DNA of 41,689 bases from Treponema sp. (GCA_004294945.1 SHOL01000003.1:1-41689); one strand, 5' to 3'; positions 27,346 to 40,957 are shown, counted from the stretch's first letter. Notes: generated from the letters alone by a model not told the origin. Numbers and translations: made by a program.

Positions 27346-27375
27346 ATAAAAAAAACCGGCTTTCAGGGCCGGTTT
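27346..27375 (-). terminator. Rho-independent terminator of the partner-switching operon
   Basis: AAACCGGC (27353-27360) pairs with GCCGGTTT (27368-27375) around a 7-nt loop. Read on the - strand the hairpin is followed by a run of T (27348-27355), the layout of an intrinsic terminator. It lies 25 bp beyond the stop of the 27400-27951 gene. Confidence 0.85.
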
Positions 27376-30004: not shown

Positions 30005-30033
30005 AGTTTAGCATCCTTAATTTCAGTCGTCAA
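30005..30033 (-). promoter_or_regulatory. Sigma70-type promoter for the partner-switching operon, probably leaderless
   Basis: On the - strand TTGACG (30028-30033), 17 bp, TAAACT (30005-30010). Only 8 bp lie between the -10 and the ATG at 29996, so the transcript would start at or within about 2 nt of the start codon. The -35 overlaps the stop codon of the ParB-like gene. Confidence 0.65.
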
Positions 30034-30935
30034 GTTTGAAAGATTTTTTTGATAAAATCGCGAATTGTCGCTAACAGTCCGTGGGGGTGCATATCCGCGA
30101 TCCGGTCAGTTGCTGCATCAAGTGAATATTCCAGGCCGTATTTCTGTTTAAGGTCGTCCCATTGTTTGATAATCCAGACATACAGATCGCTTGCGGTGCG
30201 GTTCCGGAATCTTTTAAGCAGTTTTTTCTTCTTTATAACGTGCATGACCGGTTGATACACATTCTTGTACCAGGAAACAAGCGCATCGTTGAAGGGAATT
30301 TCTTCTTTTATTCCAGTATTAATGTAATACTTGTGAACAAGAATATGGTTGTATATGACATCATACTGACCGGGACTGGTAAAATCCAGATTCCAGTCTT
30401 CAGTGAGGTCTCCAAAAGCGGTTTCCGTATAAAACACTCTTTTTTCATACTTGATTACTTCCGAGAGGATATTTTCCGGTGTAATCCCGGGTTTGAGCAG
30501 TATCTCTGTCTGCAGAGAGATTACTTCCGCATCTATGTACTGTACCCCCTGAGCTTTAGACACTGACACACGATGATTGCCATCGCGCACAAAATACAGC
30601 CCGCCGATTTCATACAGCTGTATCGGCGGGAGTACAATATCGCTCAGGTGGGCTTCATCCACCCGTTCCCATCTTTGTCTGAGATTACTGGTTTTTGGCA
30701 GAAAGTGATTGTCAAAATCCTGGTAGCGTCCTTCGCTTCCGACAATTTTTTGTATCGGTACTGTCTTCATCCCGGCGTACACTTCATTTTTCGGTTTAAG
30801 AATTTTCTTTACGTCATGGAAAGACAAGAGCCGGCTTTTATCGGGATTGAGAAAATTCTGGATTTCGTTGAACAGTGCCTTGTTGCGCGCTCGAGTAAAA
30901 TCTTCTTCTGCTTGATTTCGTATAAAATCACTCAT
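30030..30935 (-). CDS. ParB/sulfiredoxin-like domain protein
   Basis: A 301-residue protein with a ParB/Srx-type core at about 95-150. It shows VLPPIQLYEIGGLYFVRDGN, then HRVSVSKAQGVQYIDAEVI, the G-x-H-R-x-x-A box that in this superfamily binds nucleotide. The N-terminus is helical and charged; the C-terminal half (about 165-301) is unlike ParB and has a basic KKKKLLKRFRNR stretch and a helix near the end. No helix-turn-helix DNA-binding segment is obvious, so it is not a plasmid-type partition protein. Its 5' end overlaps the phosphoesterase gene by 4 bp (ATGA), implying coupled translation. The function is unknown. Confidence 0.7.
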   Translation of the reverse strand: MSDFIRNQAEEDFTRARNKALFNEIQNFLNPDKSRLLSFHDVKKILKPKNEVYAGMKTVPIQKIVGSEGRYQDFDNHFLPKTSNLRQRWERVDEAHLSDIVLPPIQLYEIGGLYFVRDGNHRVSVSKAQGVQYIDAEVISLQTEILLKPGITPENILSEVIKYEKRVFYTETAFGDLTEDWNLDFTSPGQYDVIYNHILVHKYYINTGIKEEIPFNDALVSWYKNVYQPVMHVIKKKKLLKRFRNRTASDLYVWIIKQWDDLKQKYGLEYSLDAATDRIADMHPHGLLATIRDFIKKIFQT

Positions 30936-31606
30936 GTATCAGCATCTCCGGTGTCCAGTATATAGTGGCTGTATGCATTAATAACCGTAGTGTCATGATA
31001 GCGGGAAACCCGAATGTCCTGCAAATCATAGAGATGAATATGGCCATGAATCAGAAATCTGGGTTTGAATTTTTTCATAAACCAGAGAAATGAGGCAAAG
31101 CCCTTGTGGCAGGCGTCCGGTTTATCGTGAATCCCCTCAGGCGCAGCATGCGTAACCAGAATGTCAAGGTACCGGCCGTATCGAAGCTTATTCAGAAGCA
31201 GAGCCGGGACGAGACCGAGCAGCTTCAGTTTCATCTGGGAATCGGTAAATTGATTCAGCCCTGTGTTATACCGGATCGATCCTGAAACACCTGCGATAAG
31301 CAGATTCCCCTCCCGGTATGTTTTAAATCCGAGGTAGGTAGTCCCATGAGACATCCTGGTTTGCGAGTGATAATTATCGCCTGTTTGTCTGGTGTAATCA
31401 ATTTTATGGTACAGCCCGTACTCATTGAGGTTGTGATTCCCGAAAACAAAAAAAACCGGCTTGTTCAGGGATGATACGATAAAATCCAGGTATTCCATTG
31501 GAAGATCGCCTGCTGAAATTACCAGATCGATATCTTTATACCGCTCCTTGATATTGCTGCTATAGACGAGAGGATCGATCTGGTCCGAAACACACAGGAT
31601 TTTCAT
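30932..31606 (-). CDS. Calcineurin-like metallophosphoesterase lacking the first His ligand
   Basis: A 224-residue metallophosphoesterase fold. Motifs in order: VSDQIDP at 7-12, SAGDLP with Asp 34, FGNHN with Asn 57 and His 58, LVTHAAPEG, and the final GHIH near 193-196. The first motif is normally D-x-H; here it reads D8-Q9-I10, so that His is absent while the others are present. This may mean a different metal site or a binding role. The substrate is unknown. The gene lies 8 bp after the TPR/Mrr-like gene and overlaps the ParB-like gene by 4 bp, making a three-gene unit. Confidence 0.82.
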   Translation of the reverse strand: MKILCVSDQIDPLVYSSNIKERYKDIDLVISAGDLPMEYLDFIVSSLNKPVFFVFGNHNLNEYGLYHKIDYTRQTGDNYHSQTRMSHGTTYLGFKTYREGNLLIAGVSGSIRYNTGLNQFTDSQMKLKLLGLVPALLLNKLRYGRYLDILVTHAAPEGIHDKPDACHKGFASFLWFMKKFKPRFLIHGHIHLYDLQDIRVSRYHDTTVINAYSHYILDTGDADT

Positions 31607-31614
31607 AGTGTTAA

Positions 31615-32994
31615 TCAGGATGATTTAAAAAACTCGATCGATGCCAGCATCTGCTCCAGCTTGTCTTTGTTAATCAATTCCAGTGGTCTGCTTTCGGCGA
31701 ATTCAAGGGCTGTCCTGGTAAATCCTGAACTGGTTATGATTACGCCCCGGATGATCGATTGTTTTTTCATGTCTTCCTGGAGGGTTCTGAGATACGAGTC
31801 TTCGATCAGGTTCGGATCACGGTAGAACATAATCATTCTGGGCATTTTTCGTACATTGCGCCATTTTTCTGCATCGTTTTCAACAGCGATAATTGAACAG
31901 CCGGATTTTGTTTCGGAAATTTCTCGAACCGATAATTCCAGAGCTTGGGTTGTAATCGCTTTGCAAATTTCAAAGAACGCGTCCCGGTTGGCGGTCAGGT
32001 ATTCCTTCATGTGATCATTGGAACGGAGTTCCTGGTACTGGGAGAGTTTTTCGCCGACATCCCGGAAATTCCGTTTTTTTGCAAAAATCTTTTCCCATTG
32101 AGAAATAGCCTGATCGATATCCCGTTTTTTTTCGTAGCAGTCTGCAAGAAAATAGCGGGCATACAGCGTATCGTTTGATGTTTCATCCTGGCTTGCCTTG
32201 ATAGCCCGTTCAAATTCGAGTATCGCTTTCTCGATACTGTTCGCTTCCAGATAACAACATCCTCGTTCTATCAGGGCTTTTTGTTTAAACTCCGGATCTC
32301 TGAGCACTTTTTCGAATGAAACAAGCGCGTTCGCATAATCGTGGCTTTCACGCTGCAATTTTCCCTGGATGAACAGAGCCTTATTGTTTCTTGTATCGAT
32401 TTGCAATGCGAGTTTGAGATGCTCTTTTGCGTCTGTAGTCTGCTTTGCCCGATACAGCAGAAAACCTAGAGCTGCATGGGCCGCAGCATGTTTCGGATCG
32501 GTTTCTATTGCTTTCCGGTAGTACTGGATCGCCTGTTCACTGTTCTCTCTGTCTTCGAACAGCACGCCGGTCTGGTAGTAATGGTCGGCCTGAAAAGGCT
32601 CAAGCTTTATCAGCAGCAGGTACTCTTTGAGCGCTTCCTCTGGCTGGTTATATTTCAGGAATAAGTGTGCTATAGTTTTCCGGAATTCTGATTCGGGAAT
32701 GATTTTGGAAAAAATCGCAGTGGTGTTTACCGCTTTGAACTCCATGAGTGCAAGTTCCGATTTGCCTTCTGCAAGATATGCCTTGCCGAGCAAATACCGG
32801 GCTTCGGCGTCCCGATGGTTTTTTGCGGTCAGCGATTTTGCCTGTTTTATTGCTGCGGCGTACTTGCCGTTTTTAATCAGTTTCTGGATGGTTTCAATTT
32901 TCTTTGGAGCAAGCACGGATTTAATGACAAAAACGAGTAAAACGGCTATGCCTGTGCCGAGAATCAATATGATACCGATAAACATGGTAGACAT
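31615..32994 (-). CDS. Membrane-anchored TPR protein with degenerate Mrr-like C-terminal domain
   Basis: A 459-residue protein. An N-terminal membrane segment (IGIILILGTGIAVLLVFVI, about 6-24) is followed by at least five TPR units to about residue 320 (for example RYLLGKAYLAEGKSELALMEF; HYYQTGVLFEDRENSEQAIQYY; AAHAALGFLLYRAKQTTDA, each partly shown). The last 115 residues resemble the Mrr-type PD-(D/E)xK restriction fold: SGCSIIAVE, MIMFYRD and GVIITSSGFTRTALEFA followed by LELINKDKLEQML. The places where Asp and the QxK triad should be read CSII and MIMFYRD, so catalysis looks lost. I start at ATG 32994; a longer in-frame reading would run into the divergent gene. No Shine-Dalgarno, but a -10 lies 9 bp upstream. 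Confidence 0.78.
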   Translation of the reverse strand: MSTMFIGIILILGTGIAVLLVFVIKSVLAPKKIETIQKLIKNGKYAAAIKQAKSLTAKNHRDAEARYLLGKAYLAEGKSELALMEFKAVNTTAIFSKIIPESEFRKTIAHLFLKYNQPEEALKEYLLLIKLEPFQADHYYQTGVLFEDRENSEQAIQYYRKAIETDPKHAAAHAALGFLLYRAKQTTDAKEHLKLALQIDTRNNKALFIQGKLQRESHDYANALVSFEKVLRDPEFKQKALIERGCCYLEANSIEKAILEFERAIKASQDETSNDTLYARYFLADCYEKKRDIDQAISQWEKIFAKKRNFRDVGEKLSQYQELRSNDHMKEYLTANRDAFFEICKAITTQALELSVREISETKSGCSIIAVENDAEKWRNVRKMPRMIMFYRDPNLIEDSYLRTLQEDMKKQSIIRGVIITSSGFTRTALEFAESRPLELINKDKLEQMLASIEFFKSS

Positions 32995-33003
32995 ATCGAT
33001 AAG

Positions 33004-33030
33004 ACTATAGCTTTTATGGGGTATTGTCAA
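33004..33030 (-). promoter_or_regulatory. Candidate promoter abutting the TPR/Mrr-like gene start
   Basis: On the - strand TTGACA (33025-33030, perfect), a short 15-bp spacer and TATAGT (33004-33009, 5 of 6). Nine bp separate the -10 from the ATG at 32994. It lies in the 38-bp gap between divergent genes. Confidence 0.45.
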
Positions 33031-33032
33031 AT

Positions 33033-33773
33033 ATGAAGACTGGACGAACAAAGCAGATAGGGTTCTGTCTGGCAGCCTGTTTTTTTCTTGCAGGTGTGCT
33101 GGAAGACATGTATGCACTAGACTATTTTACCGAGGGCGTGCGGTTGTTCAGGGACAAGCAGTATGCGGAAGCCGTACCCCTGTTGTATCAGGCTTCGGTT
33201 TCTGAAAGACCGGATCCGAAGGTTTTTCTGTATCTGGGACTTTCATACCAGTATACCGGGAAGCTTGCCGACGCCGTCAGCGCATTTATACGGGGAACAG
33301 CAATGAACGGTACGGATCGTGCTGTACTCTTTTTTAATGCCGGAAATGTGTACTTTATACAGGATATGTTTACAGAAGCCGAGGCAATGTTCAACAAGTC
33401 TGTGGAAGCAAACGCTTCGTACGCGCGCGTCTGGCTGAACAGGGCGAATACCCGGGTGCGCTTGGGCAAATTCGCAGAAGCTGTTCAGGATTATACACAG
33501 TACCTGTATCTGGATCCTGCGACCTGGCAGCAAGGGGCGATTCGACAGATGATAACGGTGCTTCAGGCCGAGGAAAATGAAAAACAGTCAGCTGTGCTTC
33601 GCGCTGAGGCTGAGCGGGCAACAGCAGAAGCAGAGCGGAAAGCCGCAGAAGAACGATACCAAAAACTGCTTGATGCGATCAATTCGTCACTGCAGTCGGT
33701 AGATGACGCAAGTACTGTTTCTGCCGGATCTGAACAGATACTCGACTATAATGAGGAAGGTCAACTTGAGTAA
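33033..33773 (+). CDS. Exported TPR protein with C-terminal coiled coil
   Basis: A 246-residue protein with a signal-like N-terminus (basic start, then FCLAACFFLAGVL; about residues 9-21) and three or four TPR units between about 25 and 150: FTEGVRLFRDKQYAEAVPLL, YLGLSYQYTGKLADAVSAF, FNAGNVYFIQDMFTEAEAMF and WLNRANTRVRLGKFAEAVQ. The last 70 residues are Ala/Glu/Arg-rich (AERATAEAERKAAEERY) and should form a coiled coil. ATG 33033 has GGGG at 33018-33021, a weak site; TTG 33024 is an alternative. It is divergent from the 32994 gene and overlaps the next TPR gene by 8 bp. Confidence 0.8.
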   Translation: MKTGRTKQIGFCLAACFFLAGVLEDMYALDYFTEGVRLFRDKQYAEAVPLLYQASVSERPDPKVFLYLGLSYQYTGKLADAVSAFIRGTAMNGTDRAVLFFNAGNVYFIQDMFTEAEAMFNKSVEANASYARVWLNRANTRVRLGKFAEAVQDYTQYLYLDPATWQQGAIRQMITVLQAEENEKQSAVLRAEAERATAEAERKAAEERYQKLLDAINSSLQSVDDASTVSAGSEQILDYNEEGQLE

Positions 33774-35889
33774 TAACAACAAAAAACGGATTATCGCAGT
33801 TACGGTCGCAGCCGCTGTATTGCTTCTGGCCGGTGCCGTTCTGGCCTTCTTTTTGATCAGGGGAGGCTCGGGCGTTTCTGCACTGGACGCCAAACGGCAG
33901 AATACGCTTGCGCTTGTCAGGCAGTATGTAGAGAAGGAAGAATTTGACCGGGCGTTGGCCCTGCTCGAATCGCTTTTAATAGAAAATGCCTCCGATGAGT
34001 CTGCTTCTGAACTGCTGGACGCAGTCCTTGCGGCAAAAAAAGCGCGGCAAGCCCTGGATGCAGGCTCTGCCGGTACAGCACTGGCTGAAGCGGAAGCTGC
34101 AATAGCGGCAGCGCGCCAGGCAGCCGCCCGAATAGCTGAAGCGGCAGAACAGGCCCGAAAGGCAGTTTCGCGTCTCGACGCCCAGTCGGCGCAGAAAAAT
34201 GCAATTCCGTCCGGGACTGGGGGAGAGCCTCCTGATGAGCCGGATCGATCGCAGCAATCGGGGACTACAAGTAATGCTTCCGCCAGGAAAGCTGTCTCCG
34301 CATCAGCAGGTGTATCAGCAGACGCAGCCGAATCCGAATCTGCGCTCCTGGCAGAAAAAGAGGAGCGCGATCGACGACAGAAAGAACAGGCTGCCGCGGA
34401 TGAACAGCGAAGAAAACAGGCAGAAGCCGAACTTGCAAAAAAGAGCGAGTACACGCAAAAACAGCTGGCACAGGTGAAGAAAGCGCTCGACCAGGGAAAA
34501 GGGAGTGCCCTGTCCGGAAATCTCCGATCGGCGCTTTCGAGCTTCGACGACGCTGCTGCTTCGCTCCCTGAAGGAGAAAAAGCCTTTGCCGCCCGGACCT
34601 ACACCGATATGGCTGAATCGCTTCTGGCCCTGGCAGAGGATGCGACAGACAGCACTGTCAGAAACGAAGCGCTTACCGCAGCACTGGAATTCGCAAACCA
34701 GGCTGTTTCGGCAGACTCTTCGCTTGCCGCTGCTCGATTCGCCCGTTCCCGCATACAGGACGAGCTCGGAAAAAAAGATGCGGCGATTGCAGATTTGAAG
34801 GAAGCCGTCCGGCTGGATTCGAATAATTACTTGTATGCCTATGAATTGGGAAAGGCCTACTATGTTCAGCGCAAATTTGCCGAAGCGAAATCTAGTTTTA
34901 CAACGGTTACAAAACTGAAAAAAGACTTTGAGGCGGCATTTTTCAACCTTGGCCTTACCTGCAAAATGCTCGGACAGACCCAAGAATCTCTTGCCGCCTT
35001 TCGCGGTGCGGTTTCGATAAAAAAAGATTACGTAAAAGCGTACATAGAAATTGGGAGAATTCTGGACAAACAGAGCGATTTCAAGGGCGCGCTCGCGGCG
35101 TACTCGTCTGCGCTTGCCACTGAGCCGGGCAACGTCCAGGCCTTGCGTGAAACTGCCGCAATCTATACCAAGACCGGCGACTACAGGACAGCCGAACGCT
35201 TTTTCCGGGAAGCACTGACGCTCGGAGCTGCAGATGCGCTGACCAACTACAATATGGCAACAGTCCAGCTGGAACTGGGAAATCCGTCTTCTGCCCTGGA
35301 TTATGCCCGAAAAGCTGTTGAAACAGACAGCACGAATGCACTGTACCTGTATACGTACGGACTTGCCGGAGAACGTGCCGGAATGCCGGATGTAGCAGTC
35401 CAGCAGTATGCTGCGGCAATTTCGGCCGATCCGAAATACGTTAAACCCCGCATTAATCTTGGAACACTGTATCTTTCCGCCGGAAGAGTAGACGATTCAA
35501 TTTCTCTTTTGAATGCTGCCTGGCTTATAGAAAAGGATAACTTTGAGGTGAACAATAACCTGGGCAAAGCCTACGGGCTCAAGCAGCAGTTTAATAAATC
35601 GGTCGAGCATTATGCCCGGGCAGTAGCGACAAATCCGAAAGATCCCGATGTCCGGGCAAACCTTGCTGCAGCGTATGTGAGTGCCGGGCTGAATGAAAAA
35701 GCGCGGGATACCTACGCCGAGGTGATACGCATGCAGCCGGAGCGCTGGGATGCCTGGTATGAACTGGGAAAAATTTACATAAGCCTTGGGGATCGCGAAA
35801 AAGCCAAAGAAACGCTCGGTGAGCTTTTAAAGCGCAAGAGCGATTACGCGCGAGCCGCTGAAATACGGGCTTTGCTCGGTACCCTGTAG
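33766..35889 (+). CDS. Large membrane-anchored TPR protein
   Basis: A 707-residue protein. It has a membrane segment at about 9-30 (AVTVAAAVLLLAGAVLAFFL), an Ala/Glu-rich region with low-complexity coiled coil (about 60-240), and eight to ten TPR units from about 245 to the end (for example YAYELGKAYYVQRKFAEAKS, FNLGLTCKMLGQTQESLAAF, YTYGLAGERAGMPDVAVQQY, VNNNLGKAYGLKQQFNKSVE). No enzyme domain is present; a periplasmic or envelope scaffold is likely. TTG 33766 is preferred: AGGAAGG at 33754-33760 is 5 nt upstream and it overlaps the preceding gene by 8 bp. ATG 33751 would add five residues but lies on that site. Confidence 0.82.
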   Translation: MSNNNKKRIIAVTVAAAVLLLAGAVLAFFLIRGGSGVSALDAKRQNTLALVRQYVEKEEFDRALALLESLLIENASDESASELLDAVLAAKKARQALDAGSAGTALAEAEAAIAAARQAAARIAEAAEQARKAVSRLDAQSAQKNAIPSGTGGEPPDEPDRSQQSGTTSNASARKAVSASAGVSADAAESESALLAEKEERDRRQKEQAAADEQRRKQAEAELAKKSEYTQKQLAQVKKALDQGKGSALSGNLRSALSSFDDAAASLPEGEKAFAARTYTDMAESLLALAEDATDSTVRNEALTAALEFANQAVSADSSLAAARFARSRIQDELGKKDAAIADLKEAVRLDSNNYLYAYELGKAYYVQRKFAEAKSSFTTVTKLKKDFEAAFFNLGLTCKMLGQTQESLAAFRGAVSIKKDYVKAYIEIGRILDKQSDFKGALAAYSSALATEPGNVQALRETAAIYTKTGDYRTAERFFREALTLGAADALTNYNMATVQLELGNPSSALDYARKAVETDSTNALYLYTYGLAGERAGMPDVAVQQYAAAISADPKYVKPRINLGTLYLSAGRVDDSISLLNAAWLIEKDNFEVNNNLGKAYGLKQQFNKSVEHYARAVATNPKDPDVRANLAAAYVSAGLNEKARDTYAEVIRMQPERWDAWYELGKIYISLGDREKAKETLGELLKRKSDYARAAEIRALLGTL

Positions 35890-36125
35890 CACTGCGTACC
35901 CGCGCCCGCGCGACCGCCAGGTCTGCGCACCGCACGAACCCCAAGACCGCGCGACTGACGCACCCGCGATCGCCGCGACCCGCGCCCCGCGCATCCGCCG
36001 CTCGCCGGTGCAGCGGCGGAGGAGCCGGGCCGATGACAGGCCGAAAATCCGGGCAGACAATCCAGCGGACAATCCAGCGGACAATCCAGCGGACAATCCA
36101 GCGGACAATCCGGCCACTCGCTCGC
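35890..36125. other. GC-rich intergenic stretch between convergent genes
   Basis: The 236 bp between the TPR gene and mutL are strikingly rich in G and C (runs such as CCCGCGCCCGCGCGACC), much more so than either neighbour. They end in a 12-bp tandem array. No credible gene, tRNA or clear terminator is visible in it. Confidence 0.8.
36056..36115. repeat. 12-bp tandem repeat, four perfect copies plus one degenerate
   Basis: GACAATCCAGCG repeats at 36056, 36068, 36080 and 36092, followed by a fifth copy GACAATCCGGCC at 36104-36115. It lies 11 bp downstream of the mutL stop, in the GC-rich convergent gap. Confidence 0.95.
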
Positions 36126-39332: not shown

Positions 39333-39361
39333 AGATTATCATGCAGAATGACTTTTCTCAA
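39333..39361 (-). promoter_or_regulatory. Candidate promoter abutting the xseA start
   Basis: On the - strand TTGAGA (39356-39361), exactly 17 bp, TAATCT (39333-39338), then 6 bp to the ATG at 39326. This places the transcription start at the start codon, and no Shine-Dalgarno is visible. It lies within the divergent gene's possible upstream extension. Confidence 0.55.
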
Positions 39362-39394
39362 GACGCATCATTCGGTGCCGATACTCATAACAGT

Positions 39395-40957
39395 ATGAAA
39401 GCACTTGCCGTCCTGTATGCCGGAACACTGTCCCGGTACGCCCTGCAGCCCGTATCCGCCGGAAAATCAGCCTTTGCCCGCTGTCTCGAATCCGCATCCC
39501 GATTCCCGGGGGTATCCGAAATTCTTGTTGCCGGGAGCGAAAGCCTTGCCTCCGCAATCCCCTCAGGCCTTTCTGTTCCGGTCCGTACTCAAAATCCTTC
39601 GGCACCCGGAATTGCATCCCTGTTTGAACTGATGGCTGCAGCTTCGCCCGGTTTCGATTCGATCTATTTCAGCTGGGCCGACTGTCCGTATCTTGATGTT
39701 TCGCTGACGTCAAGCCTTGCCGAAAAGCATACCCGCTATTTCGCCGAATATACCTTTGCGGACGGCTATCCCTACGGATTGACGCCGGATATTCTTGCCT
39801 CCGGGATCGTTCCGATAATCACAAAGCTCGCGCAGAACGAACAAGGGCCGGTAACACGATCGGTTGTGTTCGACACAGTAAAAAAAGACATCAACTCGTT
39901 CGATATCGAGACAGATCTTGCACCTGTTGATGCCCGCTATCTACGCCTGGCGCTCTCGTGCGATACCAAGCGAAATCATCAACTATGCGAAAGCCTATCC
40001 GGTATAACTGCTGATAATTACGCATCGTTCATCGCCGGACGGGAGCGCAGTCTGCGCACGCTGCCTTCGTATTATGCTGTCCAGGTGTCTGCGCGTTGTC
40101 CCCATGAGTGCGTTTTCTGCCCCTATCCGGGTCTGTGCAGGAGTGCTGCGCGTTCTGCTCCCGGCATTCCGGCAACTGAACGCCGCGACTATATGCAGGT
40201 GGCCGATTTTCGGAACATCGTTGCAAAGATAGAGGCCTTTTCCGGAGACGCGGTCGTGTCTCTTTCCCTGTGGGGCGAATGTTCGTATCACCCCGATCTG
40301 GCGGAACTGGCAGCAGCGGTACTCGAATGGCCGTCCCTGTCGCTTTTGATCGAGACGACCGGCATCGGCTGGCGGAAAGAAACGCTGGAGACTATTGCCG
40401 CTCTTGTCCACGCTGCACCTGCCCGAACAAACGGCCAGGCGGCGGTCAACTGGATTGTGTCTCTTGATGCGGTTAGTTCCGCCTGTTATGCAAAACTGCA
40501 CCGTGCTGATGAAGCGTCCTTCCGGGAAGCCCTTGCCTGTACGGAATCGCTGCATGCGCTTTTTCCCGGAGCGGTCTGGCCGCAGTTTATACGAATGAAA
40601 GAAAACGAAGAAGAACTCGAAGCGTTCTACCGGTTCTGGAAAGAAAAAACCGGAACGGTCATAATCCAGAAGCATGATCATTTCTGCAAAACGATAGAAG
40701 ACCGCCGAGTCGCCGACCTTTCTCCGCTAAAACGCTTCCCCTGCTGGCATCTGAAGCGGGATTTGTGTATTCTGGTGGATGGAACTGTTCCGCTGTGCAA
40801 AGAAGATGTCTTTGCGCACGTTTCTGCCGGCAATGCGCATTCCGACAGCTTTGAAACTGTGTGGAGCAGAATCGGCGAACGGTACGGTTCTCATTGTTCG
40901 GGGCTGTATGAAGGATTGTGCGGAGACTGCGATGAATACTATACCTATAATTTTTAA
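39395..40957 (+). CDS. Spiro-SPASM protein: nucleotidyltransferase-like domain plus radical SAM/SPASM
   Basis: A 520-residue two-part protein of a spirochete-specific group. Residues 1-220 resemble a GT-A/nucleotidyltransferase fold (ALAVLYAGTLSRYALQPV, and an Asp motif WADCPYLD around 97). The rest is radical SAM: the cluster motif is CPHECVFC with C235, C239 and C242 (Cx3Cx2C), and the SPASM-type tail has CWHLKRDLCILVDG, VPLCKEDVF and CGDCDEYY, with Cys for extra FeS clusters. SPASM proteins usually modify peptides or proteins; the substrate here is unknown. I prefer the ATG at 39395, where the conserved protein begins; an in-frame ATG at 39341 adds 18 unconserved residues. The 3' end overlaps the next gene by 26 bp. 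Confidence 0.85.
   Translation: MKALAVLYAGTLSRYALQPVSAGKSAFARCLESASRFPGVSEILVAGSESLASAIPSGLSVPVRTQNPSAPGIASLFELMAAASPGFDSIYFSWADCPYLDVSLTSSLAEKHTRYFAEYTFADGYPYGLTPDILASGIVPIITKLAQNEQGPVTRSVVFDTVKKDINSFDIETDLAPVDARYLRLALSCDTKRNHQLCESLSGITADNYASFIAGRERSLRTLPSYYAVQVSARCPHECVFCPYPGLCRSAARSAPGIPATERRDYMQVADFRNIVAKIEAFSGDAVVSLSLWGECSYHPDLAELAAAVLEWPSLSLLIETTGIGWRKETLETIAALVHAAPARTNGQAAVNWIVSLDAVSSACYAKLHRADEASFREALACTESLHALFPGAVWPQFIRMKENEEELEAFYRFWKEKTGTVIIQKHDHFCKTIEDRRVADLSPLKRFPCWHLKRDLCILVDGTVPLCKEDVFAHVSAGNAHSDSFETVWSRIGERYGSHCSGLYEGLCGDCDEYYTYNF

Follow-up and report, generated by a model that had tools for sequence, protein, structure and literature searches.

Linked inheritance and linked decay of a metallophosphoesterase and a ParB/Srx-fold protein in a Treponema operon

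The window, by which we mean the whole stretch analysed, comprises 41,689 nucleotides of Treponema sp. DNA (GCA_004294945.1 SHOL01000003.1:1-41689). A first-pass annotation had described three minus-strand genes with a gap of 8 bp and an overlap of 4 bp, and the open reading frames match it exactly: positions 31607-31614 separate the gene for a TPR protein with an Mrr-like domain (TPR/Mrr) from that for a calcineurin-like metallophosphoesterase (MPE), which in turn shares 30932-30935 with the gene for a ParB/Srx-fold protein. The upper end given there, 33030, lies too far upstream, as TPR/Mrr starts at ATG 32994 (459 aa), the same start as in its homologues. GTG 33117 was rejected as a start on the same grounds. 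RsbU-, RsbV- and RsbW-like genes follow the first three in the same direction, with gaps of 33, 27 and 23 bp before them, giving an operon of six genes (Table 1). The order of the first three genes is kept in most of the sampled Treponema-order loci, a conservation far beyond chance. A Sigma-70 scan of the operon returned no more promoters than shuffled sequences did. For the divergent gene encoding a secreted TPR protein, the listed reading frame opens at TTG 33024, and ATG 33033 is the likelier start. Elsewhere in the window, a radical SAM/SPASM protein with a fused MobA-like NTP transferase domain is encoded at 39341-40957, and a short tandem repeat (RTIQ unit, one frame) occupies ~36033-36100, between the gene for the long TPR protein and mutL.

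Table 1. Genes and other features of the operon and its divergent neighbours, in window coordinates.
Feature	Position	Strand	Description
Gene 1, TPR/Mrr, 459 aa	31615..32994	-	TM helix, ~nine TPRs, C-terminal Mrr/PD-(D/E)xK-like domain ~337-452
Gene 2, MPE, 224 aa	30932..31606	-	calcineurin-like metallophosphoesterase without motif-I His
Gene 3, ParB/Srx, 301 aa	30030..30935	-	ParB/Srx-fold domain 51-146 and helical DUF4032-like domain ~149-283
Gene 4, 551 aa	28341..29996	-	membrane GAF-SpoIIE (RsbU-like) phosphatase
Gene 5, 112 aa	27975..28313	-	STAS anti-sigma antagonist (RsbV/SpoIIAA-like)
Gene 6, 183 aa	27400..27951	-	HATPase anti-sigma-like kinase (RsbW/SpoIIAB-like)
Terminator-like hairpin and T run, operon end	27353..27375	-	8 pairs, 5 GC
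Divergent gene, secreted TPR protein	33033..33773	+	conserved neighbour of TPR/Mrr gene
Divergent gene, long membrane TPR protein	33703..35889	+	conserved neighbour of TPR/Mrr gene

A single TM helix lies at the N terminus of TPR/Mrr, and positive charge follows it in 35 of 36 homologues; by the positive-inside rule, the TPRs and the C-terminal domain are therefore probably cytoplasmic and anchored to the membrane. The C-terminal domain matches Pfam Mrr_cat (E=1.4e-7; 32.1 bits against a cut-off of 21), as it does in 32 of 36 homologues, and residues 337-452 of the structural model (pLDDT 89.6) follow the order alpha-beta-beta-beta-alpha-beta-alpha. Profile and modelled topology together place this domain among the Mrr/PD-(D/E)xK folds; a fold search with the full model returned TPR proteins only. 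The catalytic D...(D/E/Q)xK set is absent from the domain: in its beta-3 strand the sequence is F-[Y/F/L]-R (R in 44/45), and neither an acidic residue nor Lys is conserved at this point. Judged by its residues, the domain is a dead nuclease fold. The earlier description of a membrane-anchored TPR protein ending in a degenerate restriction-endonuclease-like domain therefore stands, and structure prediction does reveal the Mrr-like topology.

A distant full-length paralogue of TPR/Mrr is encoded in the same genome on contig 76 (L153:4703-6067), beside LysM and SLT transglycosylase genes, and in G042 (L162) there is an SLT gene close by as well. We considered TPR/Mrr as a flagellar collar protein and set this aside, since flagellin is encoded in all 120 genomes of our phylum sample and presence or absence is not discriminating. 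Comparison with FlcB/FlcC gave TPR-level matches only, in the small genomes of family f7, which we took by their size as Borrelia and in which the collar genes were not singled out.

MPE matches Pfam Metallophos (E=1.5e-9) and retains motifs II-V (GD, GNH, H, GHxH). Motif I reads D-x-[I/V/L], and the missing first His, already remarked on for the window's protein, is absent from all 63 homologues. In these homologues, all accompanied by ParB/Srx, the ligands D8, D34, N57, H58, H153, H189 and H191 are invariant. We read MPE as a likely active enzyme whose metal-1 site is altered. When D11 was weighed as a substitute for the missing His, proteins of other phyla proved to carry an acidic residue at a different offset. 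The nearest solved structures by profile were lariat debranching enzymes and MPPED2, both weak matches (E ~0.006 to 0.01). In G028 (L090:7182-7912), which keeps ParB/Srx, the MPE gene is split between two overlapping frames by a frameshift or a sequencing error.

The third protein matched neither ParB nor any other Pfam family with confidence. Its domain profile found ParB and SbnI structures at E=0.003, and its AlphaFold model (pLDDT 92.7) has a ParB/sulfiredoxin/SerK fold at residues 51-146, for which a fold search returned sulfiredoxin (Z 7.7), CDP-bound ParB (Z 7.1), SerK (Z 6.7) and SbnI (Z 6.1). The Z scores are middling taken alone; motif and profile agree with them, and the modelled domain belongs to this fold. 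Model and profile bear out the ParB/Srx-like core proposed in the first-pass annotation, and binding of a nucleotide by it is plausible. The protein's signature is GSEGRYxDF ... RDGNHRVS, with the nucleotide motif DGNHR (DGVHR in SbnI, DGHHR in SerK) instead of the ParB GERR box, which is absent. Among 56 members of the family, no ParB or HTH Pfam domain was found except one marginal match each.

By alignment range offsets only, E68 falls on SerK E30 and SbnI E20, and D118 on SerK D69 and SbnI D58; the two SbnI residues we take to be catalytic, and PDB titles list solved E30A and E30Q mutants of SerK. E68 is invariant in Spirochaetota (72/72) and is V or T in homologues outside the spirochaetes, for which reason we rejected the SerK Glu as a family-wide mark. 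The C-terminal helices weakly match DUF4032 (PF13224) in 49 of the 56 members (best 8.5e-6), the window's protein reaching 13.7 bits, below the curated cut-off of 23.8. In Actinobacteria, DUF4032 is joined to a kinase-like domain.

The family also has variant forms. Three genomes encode ParB/Srx fused to a C-terminal PnrA-like Bmp ligand-binding domain (L171:7863-9779, L175:4784-6922, L176:5004-6926), possibly a cytoplasmic sensor of nucleoside type. Three further loci, from spirochaetes (L128, L179, L180), contain tandem paralogues with a duplicated C-terminal domain, in a conserved cluster with genes for a TrmB regulator, an alpha-amylase and a MatE transporter. A Rubrobacter plasmid encodes, within an arsenic-resistance island, a short stand-alone protein of 159 aa that is ~50% identical in the core (L172:5812-6291).

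In a sample of 120 genomes from the phylum, 34 had both MPE and ParB/Srx, 3 had MPE only, none had ParB/Srx only and 83 had neither (Fisher 8e-27, a value that ignores shared ancestry, while joint absence in draft genomes can reflect one missing contig). The corresponding numbers for 244 genomes of the order were 218, 8, 0 and 18. MPE and ParB/Srx are adjacent in 27 of the 34 phylum genomes with both, and both are kept even where unlinked, on different contigs (G060, G081, G096, G100, G117) or more than 1 Mb apart (G260, G301, G344). In contrast, TPR/Mrr homologues or paralogues occur in 102 of the 120 genomes, mostly without the other two, and TPR/Mrr often adjoins two further TPR genes, which are divergent from it in the window. 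Because TPR/Mrr is phylum-wide and often alone, the conserved core consists of MPE and ParB/Srx. Genes found apart, which the first-pass annotation named as a refutation of its reading, are thus seen in part, TPR/Mrr occurring without the other two. The three-gene operon of the first-pass annotation is indeed conserved and unnamed, but it is a six-gene form in the window's family, where genes 4-6 have been added, and its core is the pair.

The Mrr-like domain and a weak match of MPE to PADLOC PDC-S10 might suggest an anti-phage or nucleic-acid-sensing system. The nuclease motif is missing, the PDC-S10 match is limited to the general MPE C-terminal motif region, and inheritance is near-universal in the order (218/244). 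No known defence gene or defence-island context was found at the locus, and a check for such an association, proposed earlier, turned up housekeeping neighbours instead (mutL, xseA, flagellar export genes, aconitase). We regard a role in defence as highly improbable.

Among spirochaetes, a nadA-MPE-ParB/Srx-nadK-recN cluster is conserved in three families (L117-L122), and the order mutL-MPE-ParB/Srx occurs as well. Outside Spirochaetota, where we searched plasmids by tblastn, the adjacent pair turned up in plasmid sequences of Fusobacteriota and Actinomycetota: in Cetobacterium it follows a maltose transporter and glycogen phosphorylase, in Tsukamurella it belongs to a sugar ABC operon, and in Collinsella its ParB/Srx member carries a fused PnrA-like Bmp domain. 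No one pathway fits all of these contexts. Besides the plasmid matches, there was a single weak phage match.

Loss of ParB/Srx is accompanied by decay of the MPE active site. In genus g15, all 7 MPE-bearing genomes are without ParB/Srx, and in all seven MPE has lost N57 (to S, G or K) and H189 (to Q or N). Likewise, in G016 of genus g6, a genome 76% complete, no ParB/Srx lies next to MPE, in which Y replaces H153 and F replaces H189. On the tree of TPR/Mrr, the lineages devoid of ParB/Srx represent at least two separate losses, with G016 on a long branch. A third loss is suggested by G030 (1.14 Mb), which has neither MPE nor ParB/Srx, since its genus includes members with both. The dead MPE proteins evolve under purifying selection (dN/dS ~0.04-0.14) and are still encoded between TPR/Mrr and RsbU. 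It appears that the catalytic activity of MPE is of use only alongside ParB/Srx; given the selection and the retained position, the MPE protein has a further, non-catalytic role in the operon. A possible exception to this coupling is the draft genome G269 (L191:6228-7871), where MPE is intact, an unrelated ORF takes the place of ParB/Srx and no ParB/Srx was found. G312, also a draft, has MPE without ParB/Srx.

Neighbours of the pair vary across lineages, as they would if unrelated housekeeping genes had come to share an operon by accident; set against the co-loss, the retention of both genes when unlinked, the coupled decay of MPE and the pairing across phyla, this is very improbable. The preservation of dead MPE beside TPR/Mrr under purifying selection, and of the order TPR/Mrr-MPE-ParB/Srx through most of the Treponema order, would also suit one obligatory envelope complex of all three proteins. 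That too is improbable, if less so, as over most of the phylum TPR/Mrr stands without either of the other two, and the pair exists without an adjoining TPR/Mrr in some lineages (L058-L061, L098, L105) and beyond the spirochaetes. Of the envelope-located complex sensing nucleotides or nucleic acids that had been proposed for the locus, the membrane anchor with domains inside the cell and a plausible nucleotide binding survive, but the sensing of nucleic acids is unsupported.

MPE and ParB/Srx are, we are confident, functionally coupled, and being coupled they would act on one substrate or signal. The best explanation as a whole, which we advance tentatively, is a two-gene module that sets a single phosphorylated species. 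ParB/Srx would bind a nucleotide and most likely move phosphate to a hydroxyl of a small molecule or a protein, as SerK and SbnI do; MPE would take phosphate off the same substrate or product, and the pair would thereby set the level of that species. Because of the SerK-like residues, phosphoryl transfer and its reversal is the simplest reading. Even so, we rate a ParB/Srx kinase opposed by the MPE phosphoesterase at somewhat under an even chance: E68 is not kept outside the spirochaetes, and kinase chemistry may not be general in the family. The ParB fold is a general NTP-binding module for CTP, ATP or GTP with many roles still to assign (PMC12704722). A SerK-like protein is reported to bind CTP in place of ATP (PMC12704722), so the chemistry cannot be read off the fold.

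ParB/Srx might instead be gated by a nucleotide and not be a kinase, its shape changing when an NTP or a signalling nucleotide is bound, with MPE destroying that nucleotide to reset a switch whose output goes to TPR/Mrr or the Rsb proteins. Such a sensing switch would agree with the fold common to the CTP-switch proteins ParB and Noc, the range of nucleotides bound by ParB-fold proteins (PMC12704722), the Bmp fusions in three genomes and the variable E68 position outside spirochaetes. It leaves the invariant spirochaete E68 to be explained, and the protein has the DGxHR motif of SbnI and Srx-like kinases, not the ParB GERR, and no HTH domain was found in it. We consider this reading possible but doubtful.

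For the module that sets a phosphorylated species, the spirochaete operon invites further suggestions. The pair would have been added beside an older membrane-anchored TPR protein, whose dead nuclease-like domain is probably a surface for docking or for binding a ligand; that the pair docks on TPR/Mrr seems to us nearly an even call. In the window's family the operon would have been lengthened by the RsbU-RsbV-RsbW partner switch, and the output of the pair may feed that switch, a connection suggested by the operon only and, in our view, less likely than not. Joint inheritance across several phyla and the loss of the active site in lineages devoid of the partner point towards a new biochemical switch with two parts. 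In its most far-reaching form, which we think unlikely though worth stating, this would be a regulatory module, so far unknown and shared across phyla, that writes and removes a new kind of phosphorylated signal or modification, coupled in spirochaetes to a membrane pseudo-nuclease receptor and the RsbU partner switch, with the eraser turning into a conserved pseudo-enzyme once the writer is lost.

Our search of open-licence papers found none that joins the MPE and ParB/Srx genes and none in which DUF4032 is named, and phosphoesterases, spirochaetes and Treponema are absent from the main text of a survey published in 2025 on the ParB-CTPase fold (PMC12704722). The earlier statement that no named system with this set was known agrees with that search. 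Each component has a known fold; what appears to be undescribed is the module together with its evolution. In this ParB/Srx family the enzymatic partner is fixed, evolution itself supplies a clear test of whether the two are coupled, and there are conserved residues to mutate, so that its chemistry is open to direct test. It would further provide an initial clue to operon genes that are retained, without annotation, in most Treponema-like spirochaetes, and to the input of their RsbU-type switch.

Each component has a known counterpart from which it departs. TPR/Mrr shares the Mrr_cat match and the order of secondary structure with Mrr-type PD-(D/E)xK nucleases, but it lacks their catalytic acidic/Lys set and is fused to a TM-TPR region. 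MPE has motifs II-V intact like other calcineurin-like phosphoesterases, such as the RNA lariat debranching enzyme and MPPED2, and is distinguished from them by the motif-I His missing throughout, by a signature of its own, GxxGSxRYxxGxNQ, and by its constant partner. ParB/Srx resembles SerK and SbnI in fold, in the DGxHR motif, in the lack of a detectable ParB-type HTH and, in spirochaetes, in an acidic residue where SerK has E30, one that is replaced in other phyla; it differs in its helical DUF4032-like C-terminal domain, partner phosphoesterase and GSEGRYxDF signature, and its sequence similarity is weak (E=0.003 for SbnI). With the ParB/Noc CTPase clamps it shares the nucleotide-binding fold, but not the GERR box, the HTH or, in the annotated stretches, a parA neighbour. 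Finally, genes 4-6 are by their domains clear members of the RsbU-RsbV-RsbW partner switch, whereas the input genes upstream of them in this operon are new.
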